Part shown: one piece after another, positions 8,251 through 53,565 of the stretch
How positions within the stretch are numbered: the first letter of the stretch is position 1
Layout of the letters: every line of letters begins with the position of its first letter
DNA from: Saccharopolyspora gloriosae
Lineage (GTDB): Bacteria > Actinomycetota > Actinomycetes > Mycobacteriales > Pseudonocardiaceae
Assembly: GCF_022828475.1 (NCBI RefSeq)
Contig: NZ_CP059557.1
Coordinates: 1,922,001 to 1,986,000, forward strand
DNA: 64,000 bases
Direction: 5' to 3'
Translations under genes and position numbers: made by a program
The notes under the pieces: generated by a model
The model's input: only the letters and a program-made list of their open reading frames with translations
Told to the model about the DNA's origin: nothing
Databases searched by the model: none

Positions 8251-8285
8251 GTTCGTCGCCGTTGCGGAAATGCCTGCGCAGTGGG

Positions 8286-8445
8286 TACCTCGCCGCCCCT
8301 TCGCCGGTGTGGGCGCGATTTCTCAGGTATGTCCGATGTGCCACGAAATCGCTGTCCTCGCGAGGAAGCCGCTGTGAACCCGCCGGTGGTCGTCTTGCTC
8401 CAGCCGGTCACTGCTGCGCGGTTTCGCCGCTGAGACGACAGCGAC
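8286..8445 (+). repeat. Dispersed palindromic repeat, degenerate copy
   Basis: This copy keeps the right half of the element: CGATTTCTC...ACGAAATCG inner arms, GCGAGGAAGCCGCTGTG (8360-8376), the tail GAACCCGCCGGTGGTCG, and the short module GGTCACTGCTGCGCGG with TTTCGCCGCTGA. The left outer arm is eroded. It fills the gap after the channel gene, which has no other gene. Confidence 0.75.
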
Positions 8446-10560: not shown

Positions 10561-10704
10561 GTAGCGGAACCTCAGCGGCTTCCTCGCTGCGGGATCGATT
10601 TCTCATGTAGCCCGCTGCACAGCGAAATCGCTGTCCTCACGAGGAAACCGCTGAGAACCCGCCGGTGGTGGGCTTGCTCGAGTCACTGCTGACAAGACAT
10701 GGAA
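10561..10704 (+). repeat. Dispersed palindromic repeat, copy at 10.6 kb
   Basis: Outer arms CTCAGCGGCTTCCTCGC (10571-10587) and ACGAGGAAACCGCTGAG (10639-10655) pair with two mismatches. Inner arms CGATTTC and GAAATCG lie between them. The flanks GCGGAAC and GAACCCGCCGG and the tail GTCACTGCTGACAAGACA follow the family pattern. It lies between htpG and the TetR gene at 10791. Confidence 0.88.
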
Positions 10705-11563: not shown

Positions 11564-12769
11564 ATGTCCTCAGCGACCGACGCACCCACCACGCCGGACC
11601 TCCCGTTGCACATGCGGCGCAACGGTTTTGATCCCGTTCCCGATCTCGCCGAGGTGCGGGAGGGCAGTGGTCTCGCCCAGGTCAGGACTCCGTTCGGCGC
11701 GGAGGCCTGGCTGGTCACCCGGCACGCCGACGTCCGCGCGCTGCTCGGAGACGCGGCGAGCTTCAGCAACAGCTGGCAGCGCCCCAACTTCGGCCTCTCC
11801 GAGCAGGAGGCTGCCGAGCTGCGGCGCGGCAATCTGCTCACCTACGACCCGCCGGAGCACAGCAGGCTGCGGCGGATGCTCACGCCCGAGTTCACGGTGC
11901 GGCGGATGCGGAGGTTGCAGCCTCGGATCGAGGAGATCGTCGAGGACCACCTCGACGCGATGGAGCGGGCCGGTGCGCCGCGCGACCTGGTCGCGGACTT
12001 CGCGCTCCCGGTGCCGTCGCTGGTGATCTGCGAGCTGCTGGGCGTGCCTTACGAAGACCGGGCCGAGTTCCAGGAGCGCACCGGCAAGGCGCTCGACACC
12101 TCGCTGCCCGACGACGAGCGGGTGCGGCTCAACATCGAGCAGCGGGCGTACATGCGCGGGCTCGTGGAGCGGGCGCAGGCCGATCCGGGCGAGGACATGC
12201 TGGGCATGTTGGTGCGCGAACACGGCGACGACCTGGAAACGGCCGACCTCACGGGCATCGCGAGCCTGCTGCTGGTCGCCGGGCACGAGACCACCTCGAA
12301 CATGCTGGGCCTCGGCACGCTCGCGCTGCTGCGCCACCCCGATCAGCTGGCGCTGGTGCGCGACGAGCCGGAACGCGTCGCCCCGGCGGTGGAGGAGTTG
12401 ATGCGCTGGCTGAGCATCGTGCACTCCGGTGCGCCACGGGTGACGACCACCGACGTGGAGATCGCCGGCCAGGTCGTGCCCGCGAACTCGATCGTCATGT
12501 TCGCGCTGCCCGCGGCCAACCGCGACCACGAGCTGGTGGACGACCCGGACACCCTCGACGTCACCCGCAAGCAGATCAACCACCTGGGCTTCGGCCACGG
12601 CATCCACCACTGCCTCGGCGCACCGCTGGCCAGGATGGAGATGTGCACGGCGTTCCCCGCGCTGCTGCGCCGCTTCCCGAACCTGCGCACCGCGACTCCC
12701 GCCGACGAGATCGAGTTCCGCTCGTACCACTTCGTCTACGGCCTCAAGAAGCTCGACGTCGCCTGGTAG
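11564..12769 (+). CDS. Cytochrome P450, tandem copy 1
   Basis: This 401-residue soluble bacterial P450 monooxygenase has the I-helix oxygen-binding motif AGHETTSNM, the ExxR motif within EELMRWLS, and the heme-thiolate loop FGHGIHHCLGAPLARME. The substrate cannot be read. The protein starts MSSATDAPTTPDLPLHMRRN, with AGGAG five bases upstream. It is a close tandem duplicate of the gene at 12942; the two share long identical stretches such as MLTPEFTVRRMRRLQPRIEE. No ferredoxin or reductase gene is adjacent, so redox partners must come from elsewhere. Confidence 0.95.
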   Translation: MSSATDAPTTPDLPLHMRRNGFDPVPDLAEVREGSGLAQVRTPFGAEAWLVTRHADVRALLGDAASFSNSWQRPNFGLSEQEAAELRRGNLLTYDPPEHSRLRRMLTPEFTVRRMRRLQPRIEEIVEDHLDAMERAGAPRDLVADFALPVPSLVICELLGVPYEDRAEFQERTGKALDTSLPDDERVRLNIEQRAYMRGLVERAQADPGEDMLGMLVREHGDDLETADLTGIASLLLVAGHETTSNMLGLGTLALLRHPDQLALVRDEPERVAPAVEELMRWLSIVHSGAPRVTTTDVEIAGQVVPANSIVMFALPAANRDHELVDDPDTLDVTRKQINHLGFGHGIHHCLGAPLARMEMCTAFPALLRRFPNLRTATPADEIEFRSYHFVYGLKKLDVAW

Positions 12770-12941: not shown

Positions 12942-14162
12942 ATGTCCTCAGCGACGGACAGCGCAGCCGCCGACGCATCTCCCAGCCCGCAACTGCCGCT
13001 GCACATGCGGCGCAACGGGTTCGACCCCGTTCCCGACGTCGCTCAGGTGCGTGCGAGCAGCGGCATCCTGCGTTTCACGACCCCGTTCGGCGCGGACGCC
13101 TGGCTGGTGACCCGGCACGCCGACGTGCGGGCGATGCTGGGCGACGCGGCGAGCTTCAGCAACGCCGAACATCGCCCGGACTTCGGCCTTCCCCCGGAGG
13201 AGGCCGCCGAGCTCAACCGCGGCAACCTGCTGAGCTACGACCCGCCGGAGCACACCCGGTTGCGGCGGATGCTCACGCCCGAGTTCACGGTGCGGCGGAT
13301 GCGGAGGTTGCAGCCCCGGATCGAGGAGATCGTCGAGGACCACCTCGATGCGATGGAGCGGGCCGGTGCGCCGCGCGACCTCCTCGCGGACTTCGCGTTT
13401 CCCGTGCCGTCGCTGGTGATCTGCGAGTTGCTGGGCGTGCCTTACGAAGACCGGGCCGAGTTCCAGGAGCGCACCGGCAAGGCGCTCGACACCTCGCTGC
13501 CCGGCCCGGAGCGGGCGCAGAACAACATCGATCAGCGGGCGTACATGCGCGAGCTGGTGGAGCGGGCGCAGGCCGATCCGGGCGAGGACATGCTGGGCAT
13601 GCTGGTGCGCGAGCACGGCGATGCTTTGGAGGCGCCCGACCTCACGGGCATCGCGAGCCTGCTGCTGGTCGCCGGGCACGAGACGACGGCGAGCATGCTC
13701 GGCCTCGGCACGCTCGCGCTGCTGCGCCACCCCGACCAGCTGGCGCTGGTGCGCGATGACCCGGAACGCGTCGCCCCGGCGGTGGAGGAGTTGATGCGCT
13801 GGCTGAGCATCGTGCACTCCGGTGCGCCGCGAGTGACCACGACCGATGTGGAGATCGCGGGTCAGCTCGTGCCCGCGGGTTCGACCGTGGTGTTCGCGCT
13901 GCCTTCGGCCAACCGGGACGACGACCTGGTGGATGATCCGGACACCTTCGACATCACCCGCAAGCAGATCAACCACTTGGGCTTCGGCCACGGCGTGCAC
14001 CACTGCGTCGGTGCTCCGCTGGCGCGAATGGAGATGTGCACGGCGTTCCCCGCGTTGCTGCGCCGCTTCCCGAACCTGCGCACCGTCACGCCGGACGACG
14101 AGATCGAGTTCCGCTCGTACCACTTCGTCTACAACCTCAAGAAGCTCGACGTCGCCTGGTGA
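12942..14162 (+). CDS. Cytochrome P450, tandem copy 2
   Basis: This 406-residue P450 is highly similar to the gene at 11564 and about five residues longer near its N-terminus (MSSATDSAAADASPSPQLPL). Motifs are AGHETTASM, EELMRWLS and FGHGVHHCVGAPLARME. The upstream regions are also alike (GGTTCCC before a CAGGAG or CAGGAGAG ribosome site), so the duplication included the promoter-proximal DNA. Differences cluster in substrate-facing parts such as the region before the I helix (EHGDALEAPDL against EHGDDLETADL), but they are few. Confidence 0.95.
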   Translation: MSSATDSAAADASPSPQLPLHMRRNGFDPVPDVAQVRASSGILRFTTPFGADAWLVTRHADVRAMLGDAASFSNAEHRPDFGLPPEEAAELNRGNLLSYDPPEHTRLRRMLTPEFTVRRMRRLQPRIEEIVEDHLDAMERAGAPRDLLADFAFPVPSLVICELLGVPYEDRAEFQERTGKALDTSLPGPERAQNNIDQRAYMRELVERAQADPGEDMLGMLVREHGDALEAPDLTGIASLLLVAGHETTASMLGLGTLALLRHPDQLALVRDDPERVAPAVEELMRWLSIVHSGAPRVTTTDVEIAGQLVPAGSTVVFALPSANRDDDLVDDPDTFDITRKQINHLGFGHGVHHCVGAPLARMEMCTAFPALLRRFPNLRTVTPDDEIEFRSYHFVYNLKKLDVAW

Positions 14163-21584: not shown

Positions 21585-22130
21585 ATGACCACGAACCCGA
21601 TCGACCTCAAGGCCGCGCTGGACGGATTCGACGCCGTGTGGAGCCCGCGGATCATCACCTACCTCAACGACTACGACATCCGGCTGGCCCGGTTCCACGG
21701 CGAGCACGTGTGGCACGTGCACCTGGACACCGACGAATTCTTCCTGGTGCTGGACGGTGAAATCGACATCGCGCTGCGCGAGCAGGCTGGGGAGCGGAAC
21801 GTGACGCTGCCGCGCGGTTCGGTGTTCGTGGTGCCGCGCGGCACCTTCCACAAGCCGTCGTCGAAGGAGGGCGCGGCGGTGCTGCTGGTGGAGCCGACCG
21901 GAACGCTCTCCGTCGGCGACCGCCACGACGAGGTACCAGACCACATCGACGTCACCGCTGGTCACTTGGTGTTCGGGGGTGATGCCCGGTCGTTTTGCTT
22001 GGGTGGTCGGGTGGCGGAACCTCAGCTGTCTTCTCGCTGCGGGATCTTTTTCCCTAGTGGCTCCGCCACGAGGGAAAAAGCTGTCCTCGCGAGAAGACAG
22101 CTGAGAACCCGCGGGTGGTCGGCTTCTTGA
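21585..22130 (+). CDS. Small cupin protein with a repeat-derived C-terminal extension
   Basis: The first 130 or so residues form a single cupin: EHVWHVHLDTDEFFLVLDGE carries the HxH...E metal ligands and PRGTFHKPSSKEG the last His. Proteins of this kind normally end near VTAGH. Here the frame continues through GDARSFCLGGRV into VAEPQLSSRCGIFFPSGSAT and beyond, which is translation of the dispersed palindrome at 22007-22130. The protein therefore has a tail of about 50 residues of non-cupin origin. GAGGA lies eight bases before ATG 21585; an in-frame GTG at 21579 is less well placed. The substrate is unknown. Confidence 0.85.
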   Translation: MTTNPIDLKAALDGFDAVWSPRIITYLNDYDIRLARFHGEHVWHVHLDTDEFFLVLDGEIDIALREQAGERNVTLPRGSVFVVPRGTFHKPSSKEGAAVLLVEPTGTLSVGDRHDEVPDHIDVTAGHLVFGGDARSFCLGGRVAEPQLSSRCGIFFPSGSATREKAVLARRQLRTRGWSAS

Positions 22131-22175
22131 CGTGGGCTATGTGCTTCGCACATACAGGCACGGCCTTCGGCCGCA
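22013..22175 (+). repeat. Dispersed palindromic repeat, copy at 22.0 kb
   Basis: Outer arms CTCAGCTGTCTTCTCGC (22021-22037) and GCGAGAAGACAGCTGAG (22089-22105) are perfectly complementary. Inner arms TTTTTCCC and GGGAAAAA enclose GTGGC-TCC-GCCAC. Flanks GGTGGCGGAAC and GAACCCGCGGGTGG add an outer stem. The tail GACGTGGGCTATGTGCTTCG, then CACATACAGGCACGG, is shared with the copy at 53.4 kb. Confidence 0.93.
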
Positions 22176-22340
22176 GAGCAGGCGTGGCTTCGCCCGCCCT
22201 TCGCGGACTACGCCGCCAACGGCACGGCTTCGCCGCCAGGAGTCGGCTTCGCCGCAGGGACTCGGCTTCGCCGCCAACGGCACGGCTTCGCCGCCAGGAG
22301 TCGGCTTCGCCGTATGGGCTCGGCTTCGTCATTGGCAAGG
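22139..22340 (+). repeat. String of TTCG-loop mini-hairpins and tandem units
   Basis: About 200 bp are made of short stems closed by TTCG, such as TGTGCTTCGCACA, GGCCTTCGGCC and many GGCTTCGCC. A unit near GGCACGGCTTCGCCGCCAGG followed by AGTCGGCTTCGCCG occurs at least twice. The copy at 53.3 kb has a shorter version. The remaining DNA to 22578 holds no gene I can support. Confidence 0.8.
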
Positions 22341-22578
22341 CAGTGATTGAGATGCCTCCTTGGCGCCGTTGCTCGTTCGCCGCAGTGAATGGGGGAACTT
22401 TGCGTCGGGGTGGGTGAAATCGACGGCTGCCGCACCGGCTCGGTTCAAGATCATGTTCAATATCCCTTGGGTCGCAACGGGAAAGTGGCGGCCCTGGTTT
22501 CCGGCGCTACGCCGTTCGGGCGAGCGTCGCGTTCGTCCGCATGGCCGCAGTGCCGTAGCGGAGGGAGCGAACAGGACC

Positions 22579-51639: not shown

Positions 51640-51815
51640 GGAATGGTCTTGATCCGTGTCTTGTCAGCGGCGAAAGCCGCTGAGCAGTGACCAGCTTGAG
51701 CAGGTCGACCGCCGGCGGGTTCGCGACGGCTTCCTCGCGAGGACAGCGATTTCGCTGTGGGTGAGAATTCGATCCCGCAGCGAGGAAGCCGCTGAGGTTC
51801 CGCTGAGCGACCCGC
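51640..51815 (-). repeat. Dispersed palindromic repeat, copy at 51.7 kb
   Basis: This copy is inverted relative to that at 22 kb. GCGAGGAAGCCGCTGAG (51780-51796) pairs with CGGCTTCCTCGC (51727-51738) over 12 bp; the end of that arm is altered. An inner hairpin ACAGCGA-TT-TCGCTGT lies at 51743-51758. The short module TCAGCGG-CGAAAG-CCGCTGA is at 51664-51683. Confidence 0.88.
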
Positions 51816-53289: not shown

Positions 53290-53565
53290 CCTGATCCTTC
53301 GATCGGTATCCCGTCAGCCACGAAGCCGTGCCTAGCCGCCGCAGGCCGAGCCTCGCGCGAAGCCGAGTCCTTACGGCCGAAGGCCGTGCTTTGCGGCGGA
53401 GCCGTGCCTGTATGTGCGAAGCACATAGCCCACGTCAAGAAGCCGACCACCGGCGGGTTCTCAGTGAGCCTCTCGCGAGGACGGCATTTTCCCTCGTGGC
53501 GGAGCCACTCGGGAAAAAGATCTTGCAGCGAGAGGCTCACTGAGGTTCCGCCACCCGACCACCTA
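53290..53565 (-). repeat. Dispersed palindromic repeat with TTCG tail, copy at 53.5 kb
   Basis: This copy is inverted relative to that at 22 kb. Arms CTCAGTGAGCCTCTCGC (53460-53476) and GCGAGAGGCTCACTGAG (53528-53544) pair perfectly. The inner stem holds TTTTCCC/GGGAAAA and GTGGC-GGA-GCCAC. The tail at 53330-53450 carries TGTGCGAAGCACA and GGCCGAAGGCC, the TTCG hairpins in reverse. It fills the ilvA-katG gap. Confidence 0.93.

Follow-up and report, generated by a model that had tools for sequence, protein, structure and literature searches.

An unusual, apparently undescribed hairpin repeat of REPIN/ERIC-like kind in Saccharopolyspora gloriosae and other Pseudonocardiaceae

As two of the hairpins dispersed through a short stretch of the Saccharopolyspora gloriosae genome have arms that pair over their full length despite unlike sequences, we were interested what kind of element these hairpins represent and how both arms can change together. 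The window, i.e. the whole 64 kb stretch analysed (C1:1922001-1986000 of the 6.88 Mb single-contig genome, G000), contains all five copies that an earlier note had placed near 8.3, 10.6, 22.0, 51.7 and 53.5 kb, and a profile search of the window at E 1e-3 returned no copies beyond those five. The reference hairpin is that of the 22.0 kb copy (22013-22112, plus strand), with a stem base of GCGG/CCGC, a left arm CTCAG-CTGTCTT-CTCGC (17 nt; 22021-22037) and a right arm GCGAG-AAGACAG-CTGAG (17 nt; 22089-22105). Inside the arms lie the conserved inner junctions TGCGGGATC (22038-22046) and GCTGTCCTC (22080-22088), which enclose an inner stem and an apical stem-loop. Upstream is a G/T-rich head module (21988-22012) that differs among copies; downstream a type A tail module (22113-22154), consisting of a spacer and the mini-hairpin TATGTGCTTCGCACATA (22138-22154), leads into a run of short CGGCTTCGCCG-type hairpins up to about 22330, all on the plus strand. 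The fold z-score of this copy is -8.9 on the plus and -10.3 on the minus strand. The 8.3 kb copy (8285-8439, plus strand) has a degenerate left arm and a type B tail and lies 35 nt past the upstream stop, and the 10.6 kb copy (10563-10698, plus strand), with a shortened tail, lies between divergent genes according to script gene calls, not behind a stop codon. On the minus strand are the 51.7 kb copy (51658-51804; type B tail) and the 53.5 kb copy (unit 53411-53552, hairpin 53452-53552; type A tail), the latter with TGAGCCT in both arms.

Full 17-nt complementarity of the arms at 22.0 and 53.5 kb, despite the unlike cores CTGTCTT and TGAGCCT, was borne out, as was the alternation of the inner stem between TTTTTCCC/GGGAAAAA and CGATTTC/GAAATCG, with GGGAAAAT in the 53.5 kb copy. 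Other features had been described too uniformly. The core CGGCTTC is indeed found at 10.6 and 51.7 kb and fills both arms of the latter, but the 10.6 kb right core carries one mismatch (left C versus right A). The supposedly common stem ends deviate in the same two copies, the 10.6 kb right arm beginning with ACGAG instead of GCGAG and the outer CTGAG at 51.7 kb reading TCGCG, with the core still paired. As for the common flanks, the 8.3 kb copy is without the GGCGGAAC flank, and the right flank is GAACCCGCGGGTGG at 22.0 kb but GAACCCGCCGGCGG at 51.7 kb. With up to two mismatches allowed, the right-flank motif matched the window 13 times compared with 2.2 expected, a number reached in none of 100 shuffles. 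Elsewhere in the window, two near-identical inverted repeat pairs (11969-12085 and 13362-13478) lie 1.4 kb apart, perhaps reflecting a duplicated gene.

Comparison of many copies led to a general layout in which a hairpin of about 100 nt is nested in a modular unit of head, hairpin and tail. The 5' half of the hairpin reads, on the top strand, GTRGCGGAAC, CTCAG, seven variable positions, CTCGC and TGCGGGATC, followed by the inner stem and apical stem-loop; the 3' half continues with GCTGTCCTC, GCGAG, seven variable positions, CTGAG and AACCCGC. GTAG or GTGG stands before CGGAAC in many copies and other letters in some. Heads are of the type GTTTTGCTTGGGTGGTC or CCTGCGTAGNGGGTC. Type A tails contain a mini-hairpin (e.g. 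TATGTG-CTTCG-CACATA) and then chains of CGGCTTCGCCG-like hairpins, type B tails end in CTCAGCGGCTTCGCCGCTGACAAGAC, and 108 parsed copies divide into 50 A, 50 B and 8 with neither. Chains of short hairpins (GGCACGGCTTCGCCGC, CGGCCTTCGGCCG) trail type A tails in the window (22155-22340) and in copies within L114-L245, and both arms of the preceding mini-hairpin vary as well when compared by eye (TATGTG/CACATA, TATGCG/CGCATA, TATTCG/CGAATA). Solo modules and deletion derivatives exist as well. When head and tail motifs were used to look for a longer autonomous copy, no gene was noticed between head and tail, and heads or tails without a full hairpin resembled deletion derivatives or solo modules. 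A conserved small ORF starting from the ATG-like head was rejected, since by eye neither frame nor stop is kept among copies.

The whole-genome and related-genome search proposed in the earlier note revealed a large family whose pairing is kept across genomes. We estimate about 320-330 copies in the own genome from two counts. A 14-base pattern with two mismatches matched 208 + 216 times and its reversed control 46 + 50 times, leaving a surplus of 328, and stitched regions contained 23 + 17 elements per 864 kb, corresponding to about 318 genome-wide if evenly spread. The covariance model R1 found at least 150 copies in this genome, every scored candidate (150/150) being a match. It also matched 13 of 60 genomes, own included, with the own genus represented by 6/6 in that draw, and at least 53 of 200 genomes of the family (own included) from at least 13 of 46 genera. 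A search for exact matches to part of the element, which may omit records very near the window's own genome, led to 48 stretches, mostly from Saccharopolyspora and otherwise from Sciscionella, Saccharothrix and Amycolatopsis. A known RNA family was rejected, as Rfam 15 gave no gathering-level match in the window and only five weak matches (E 0.055 or worse) for 21950-22400. A phage or plasmid carrier was likewise rejected, the 22.0 kb copy as sole query having no match at E 1e-3 in phage and plasmid collections. As a separate observation, about 137 kb are without any element (C1 about 1,978,350-2,115,500, i.e. window position ~56,350 to the end and beyond; L124-L130), and the same region has no match above 2.5 kb to the compared stretches of genomes G002 and G003; it is perhaps an acquired island.

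Pairing was then assessed in 194 distinct copies from a search requiring recognisable arm ends. The 7-nt cores are perfectly matched in 139 of them, comprising 33 different cores, with one mismatch in 39, two in 7 and three or more in 4; the remaining 5 are chimeric, their arms matching two different known cores. Arms that mostly fail to complement each other, named in the earlier note as an argument against its reading, are therefore not what the family displays. The other such argument, that copies are recent identical duplicates, applies in part, as one 85-nt hairpin accounts for 10 of 63 own-genome copies examined while 44 distinct hairpins occur among the 63; because of these duplicates the raw count of double changes overstates independent events. 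In a 17-copy set, 77 double-changed cells were detected compared with 27 in shuffles (0/500 reaching 77), with no excess of further pair types (34 versus 34.5). Alignment A4 covers 35 copies (32 distinct rows) from other genomes, mostly of other genera but including two own-genus copies (L084, L085) and five more named Saccharopolyspora. Aligned to the model and thus leaning toward the structure, it had 86.3% paired cells (72.2% in shuffles) and 202 double-changed cells (78.6 in shuffles, 20-41 in slid controls). The excess was weak for double-changed pairs (22 versus 19.2; 11/500 shuffles reaching 22) and for pair types (50 versus 46.8; 77/500 shuffles reaching 50). Even the 'constant' ends change on both sides, CTCGC/GCGAG to CTGGC/GCCAG in at least four loci (L087, L257, L258, L262) and CTCAG/CTGAG to CTGAG/CTCAG in two (L089, L090). 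Double changes at variable and 'constant' stem positions, together with the strand bias of the outer stem, support selection on a folded single strand, one of the two causes that had been suggested for the covariation; the other, a hairpin-copying step, is at most hinted at.

Which strand folds is indicated by the pairs that depart from Watson-Crick geometry. In the outer stem of the main set (96 unique arm pairs, none with more than two core mismatches), these were C-A (37), T-G (11), A-C (9) and G-T (3), and in A4 the top strand had 34 of A-C type versus one of G-U type. Top-strand A-C cells become G-U wobbles when read on the bottom strand. Folded with RNA parameters, the bottom strand reached the lower energy for 143 of the 176 unique hairpins and for 30 of the 32 A4 rows; DNA parameters gave 146 and 32, respectively. 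A consensus fold was computed from one set of 32 sequences, 4 of the own genome and 28 of other genomes. It had 37 pairs (20 covarying) and -64.9 kcal/mol on the bottom strand, compared with 35 pairs (18 covarying) and -55.2 kcal/mol on the top strand. In the bottom-strand fold, the 18-bp stem together with the GCGGG/TCCGC base gives a near-unbroken 23-pair helix with one U-U. Against this reading count the inner stem, which has no strand bias (13 T-G, 7 C-A, 2 A-C), and constant G-U pairs at the junction of the top strand. The most plausible target of selection is the bottom strand in its folded state, which runs antisense to the upstream gene, be it RNA or single-stranded DNA. G-U tolerance there and the invariant junctions would also suit a family of structured non-coding RNA genes lying on the bottom strand, in which function and not mobility drives the spread. 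Antisense reads enriched at gene 3' ends, described in an RNA-seq study of Saccharopolyspora erythraea next to 190 intergenic ncRNAs (PMC3610266), would fit if that strain carries the element. We nevertheless consider such an RNA gene family unlikely, as some 320 rapidly replaced copies suit a selfish or gene-converted repeat better, Rfam gave no gathering-level match, and a simple sigma-70 scan detected no promoter-like site around the 22.0 kb copy, the only copy scanned, with the reservation that actinobacterial promoters may not fit that pattern. Around the same copy, three terminator-like patterns were found where 0.5 would be expected, and an alternative fold of its bottom strand is among the three.

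The position of the units relative to genes was examined for 107 of the 121 elements in seven stitched regions (score at least 40, 5' end present). Sixty-seven of them start 25-50 nt past the stop of a gene pointing at them, and 40 fall outside this rule; when positions within the same gaps and strands were drawn at random (2000 trials), this class contained 9.0 elements on average and never more than 19. An upstream gene points at the element in 78 of 107 cases, with a median of 34 nt for these 78 distances, but as the permutations averaged 68.6 and reached up to 84, orientation alone is not unusual. No copy overlaps a called gene by more than 20 nt (0/107). Gene calls came from a script based on third-position G+C; as they span 64-85% of the sequence and at least one gene escaped the script, all placement counts are approximate. 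By eye, copies in other genomes also often lie just past stop codons. The gene missed by the script is an ORF with a cupin domain (PF07883; 21579-22130, plus strand), whose frame stays open across the 22.0 kb hairpin and ends with the stop codon 22128-22130. By eye, the cupin gene ends earlier in three aligned relatives; that stop is missing here, and the predicted protein gains a repeat-encoded C-terminal tail of about 50 residues.

Such a position raises the question whether the hairpins are ordinary transcription terminators of a GC-rich genome, alike by descent and selection and not by mobility. Stop-proximal placement and chains of GC hairpins fit the hairpin-cluster intrinsic terminators in print, which are GC-rich hairpin chains mostly within 50 nt of the stop (PMC8355165). 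For those terminators no sequence conservation was found up to 25 bases from the stop codon (PMC8355165), whereas the elements here are copies of one family, with one model finding sequence-conserved junctions in 13 genera. Copies are also missing at orthologous sites of close relatives, and identical 85-nt hairpins stand at different genes. Already disfavoured as an origin on these grounds, ordinary terminators are a very improbable explanation of the family.

Orthologous sites were compared in syntenic stretches of G001, G002 and G003, where many elements face an element-free site. The mapped site of the 51.7 kb copy is element-free in all three, and at the 53.5 kb site an element is present in G001 and G002 with the cores TCGGTCT and CCGGTCT. 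At the 8.3 kb site (G000 1930285) the unit is reversed in G001 (4536846) and G002 (207706) and has the same orientation in G003. The whole unit had opposite orientation at 13 of 46 orthologous site pairs, a further case to be named being G000 1747817 and G001 4719402. Judged from these sequence comparisons, the units are mobile and modular.

As to the mover, one candidate was the Y1 tyrosine transposase RAYT (PF01797, Y1_Tnp), which moves classical REP/REPIN elements. It is present in the carriers G004, G005, G010 and G017, but gave no match in G000, G001, G002 and G003, where the presence/absence differences were seen, nor in the carriers G018 and G019, and was rejected as the mover. Spread by reverse transcription was rejected as well, with no RVT_1 (PF00078) match in G000, G001 and G003; G004 and G005 also had none and G002 had one. 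The IS91-type Y2 transposase PF04986 was found in 0 of 37 genomes, with the control genomes equally silent. The family shares with REP/REPIN elements that it consists of high-copy, mobile, non-autonomous hairpins, here in hundreds of mostly intergenic copies; GTAG or GTGG at the 5' base of many copies would fit too, other letters standing there in some. Moreover, compensatory hairpin changes are reported for REPINs (PMC3116915) and GTAG REP subfamilies have alternative complementary stem residues (PMC3733652), so that covariation as such is not new. On the other hand, published GTAG REPs measure 20-40 bp and are reported from Proteobacteria, Cyanobacteria, Chloroflexi and the PVC group (PMC3733652 for the taxa). 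Our element is neither a short REP nor an inverted pair of them but one ~100-nt hairpin whose inner junctions are conserved, and its cores turn over at orthologous sites. As RAYT was not found where expected and the unit is built differently, we did not file the family as REPIN; a classical RAYT-moved REP/REPIN with compensatory stem changes is quite unlikely.

How fast the cores change was followed at orthologous sites. Of the 121 elements in the seven regions 108 could be parsed, 94 of them with no more than one core mismatch. From the 46 pairs, a few of which arose where one element was assigned two neighbours over ~1 kb, 33 have the same orientation, and in 18 (14 sites) both members belong to these 94; sites found in three species contribute up to three of the 18 pairs. 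None of the 18 has identical cores in both arms, and two share the right core only. The left cores of orthologous pairs differ on average at 3.22 of 7 positions, compared with 3.47-3.70 for random cross-genome pairs. Four-fold sites of aligned genes differ by 11.3% between G001 and G002 and by 19-20% between G000 and either of them, which predicts about 0.8-1.4 single-arm changes per 7-nt core; these rates, determined for G000, G001 and G002, are somewhat lowered by the cut-offs (genes of at least 600 nt, matches of at least 500 nt, identity of at least 82%). Paralogs agree in tail type in 39-49% of cases but orthologous pairs in 17 of 18, which makes it probable that the sites are old. Heads of orthologs are no more alike (0.67) than those of same-tail paralogs (0.61-0.69). 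The paired cores thus apparently turn over faster than neutral sites while their pairing is kept.

Two origins of this turnover have to be weighed, copying between sites and rewriting in place. For the former speaks that two 85-nt hairpins recur among the 63 own-genome copies, one of them 10 times and the other 5 times, letter-identical but with different heads and tails. The exact hairpin of the 22.0 kb copy is present in 5 of the 63. Distinct hairpins number 44 of 63 in G000, 41 of 44 in G001 and 54 of 55 in G002 together with loci from exact partial matches; identical hairpins are common in G000 alone, and between-site copying is well shown in that one genome only. In G001, cores recur although nearly all hairpins are distinct. 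Small numbers from mapped own-genome sites place multi-copy hairpins at same-orientation sites shared with a relative in 5 of 5 cases and single-copy hairpins at shared sites in 14 of 23. In addition, as many as 10 different matched cores were seen around one exact 51-nt middle, and 478 of 567 identical-middle pairs differ in the core (mean 3.8 of 7). Either middles are also exchanged, or the cores of both arms change around a fixed middle, and whole-hairpin conversion alone is insufficient. The left flank has been rewritten to the exact complement of the right flank in 2 of 194 copies, and in one copy the inner segment is inverted relative to its flanks (L237 of G001 is the inverted one; L032 and L037 are the other loci), indicating that arm-to-arm exchange occurs at least sometimes.

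These observations, i.e. core changes in both arms around an unchanged middle, mostly unique hairpins in G001, rewritten flanks and the inverted segment, agree with diversification in situ, where one arm changes and the other is rewritten by hairpin template switching (quasipalindrome correction). As the same cores recur within a genome, identical 85-nt hairpins stand between other heads and tails in G000 and traces of correction are rare, this explanation is doubtful, if possible. Equally tentative would be a dedicated process of paired-arm replacement or diversification in a genome-wide set of hairpins behind stop codons, which would rewrite them in place, almost always both arms at once and faster than neutral, via a folded bottom-strand intermediate and an enzyme that is neither RAYT nor RVT_1.

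We favour, with about even confidence, a non-coding and non-autonomous mobile hairpin family of REPIN/ERIC-like kind in the Pseudonocardiaceae, the hairpins of which are copied between sites and selected as the folded bottom strand. A unit of head, ~100-nt hairpin and tail hairpins, most often 25-50 nt past the stop of a gene facing it, would fold on its bottom strand into an outer helix of about 23 bp, near-unbroken, around the sequence-conserved inner junction. Hairpins may then be copied from site to site in place, either by ectopic gene conversion or by strand exchange with a folded single-strand copy, so that both arms would be replaced together. Gene conversion was reportedly raised for REPs already by Higgins et al. 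in 1988. Because identical hairpins lie in different heads and tails, arms probably co-change largely by such copying between sites; chimeric arms (5/194) would be its expected by-product, and copies with mismatched arms would be lost or repaired, since the folded strand must pair. Whole-unit loss and re-insertion at favoured sites may be an alternative to copying in place, with heads differing as among paralogs. With less certainty, the unit may be tolerated or selected at gene 3' ends and act in the host as a 3'-end structure, i.e. as transcription end, RNA protection or RNase III substrate.

Among known repeats, ERIC likewise is one long intergenic, non-autonomous hairpin of about 100-130 nt, with YPAL, NEMIS and SDR as related repeats. 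Its arms are largely constant in sequence, in contrast to the 7-bp core here, which changes in both arms between neighbours; it is by this general description of ERIC that our high-copy element is set apart. No relation to ERIC was seen in Rfam, though Rfam may hold no ERIC model. Mycobacterial MIRU repeats resemble our elements as actinobacterial intergenic repeats, reportedly described by Supply et al. in 1997 as placed at the stop codons of upstream genes. MIRU, however, are arranged in tandem at start/stop overlaps, with unit lengths from tens of bp to ~100 bp, and are not covarying hairpins. Integron attC sites lie behind a stop codon, have a variable stem with conserved ends and are recognised as folded bottom strand. 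Different from these, our elements have no attC-like core by eye, form no cassette arrays and are dispersed genome-wide. We recognised no description of the hairpin family in the open-licence literature, in agreement with the earlier note, which knew of no family with such a layout; the broad kind, hairpin repeats like REP, REPIN and ERIC, is known. REP-like predictions have been published for three Actinomycetota genomes (Arthrobacter, Acidipropionibacterium and Acidimicrobium), and E. coli REPs near stop codons are known (PMC12306157).

The family is described here as an unusual and apparently undescribed bacterial hairpin repeat of REPIN/ERIC-like kind. Three of its features apparently have no description in the open-licence literature searched, namely the tight anchoring of one long hairpin at 25-50 nt, the bias toward one strand and the way paired cores turn over while their sites stay fixed. 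With many orthologous sites, close relatives and discrete cores, it lets the upkeep of palindromes be tested by counting, the options being folded-strand selection, gene conversion and hairpin-templated rewriting. About one gene in 15-20 may end in such a unit (some 320 copies for an assumed number of about 6000 genes), and as a stable hairpin chain close behind the stop would act on transcript ends whatever its origin, the family bears on 3'-end annotation, transcript ends and terminators in these actinomycetes.
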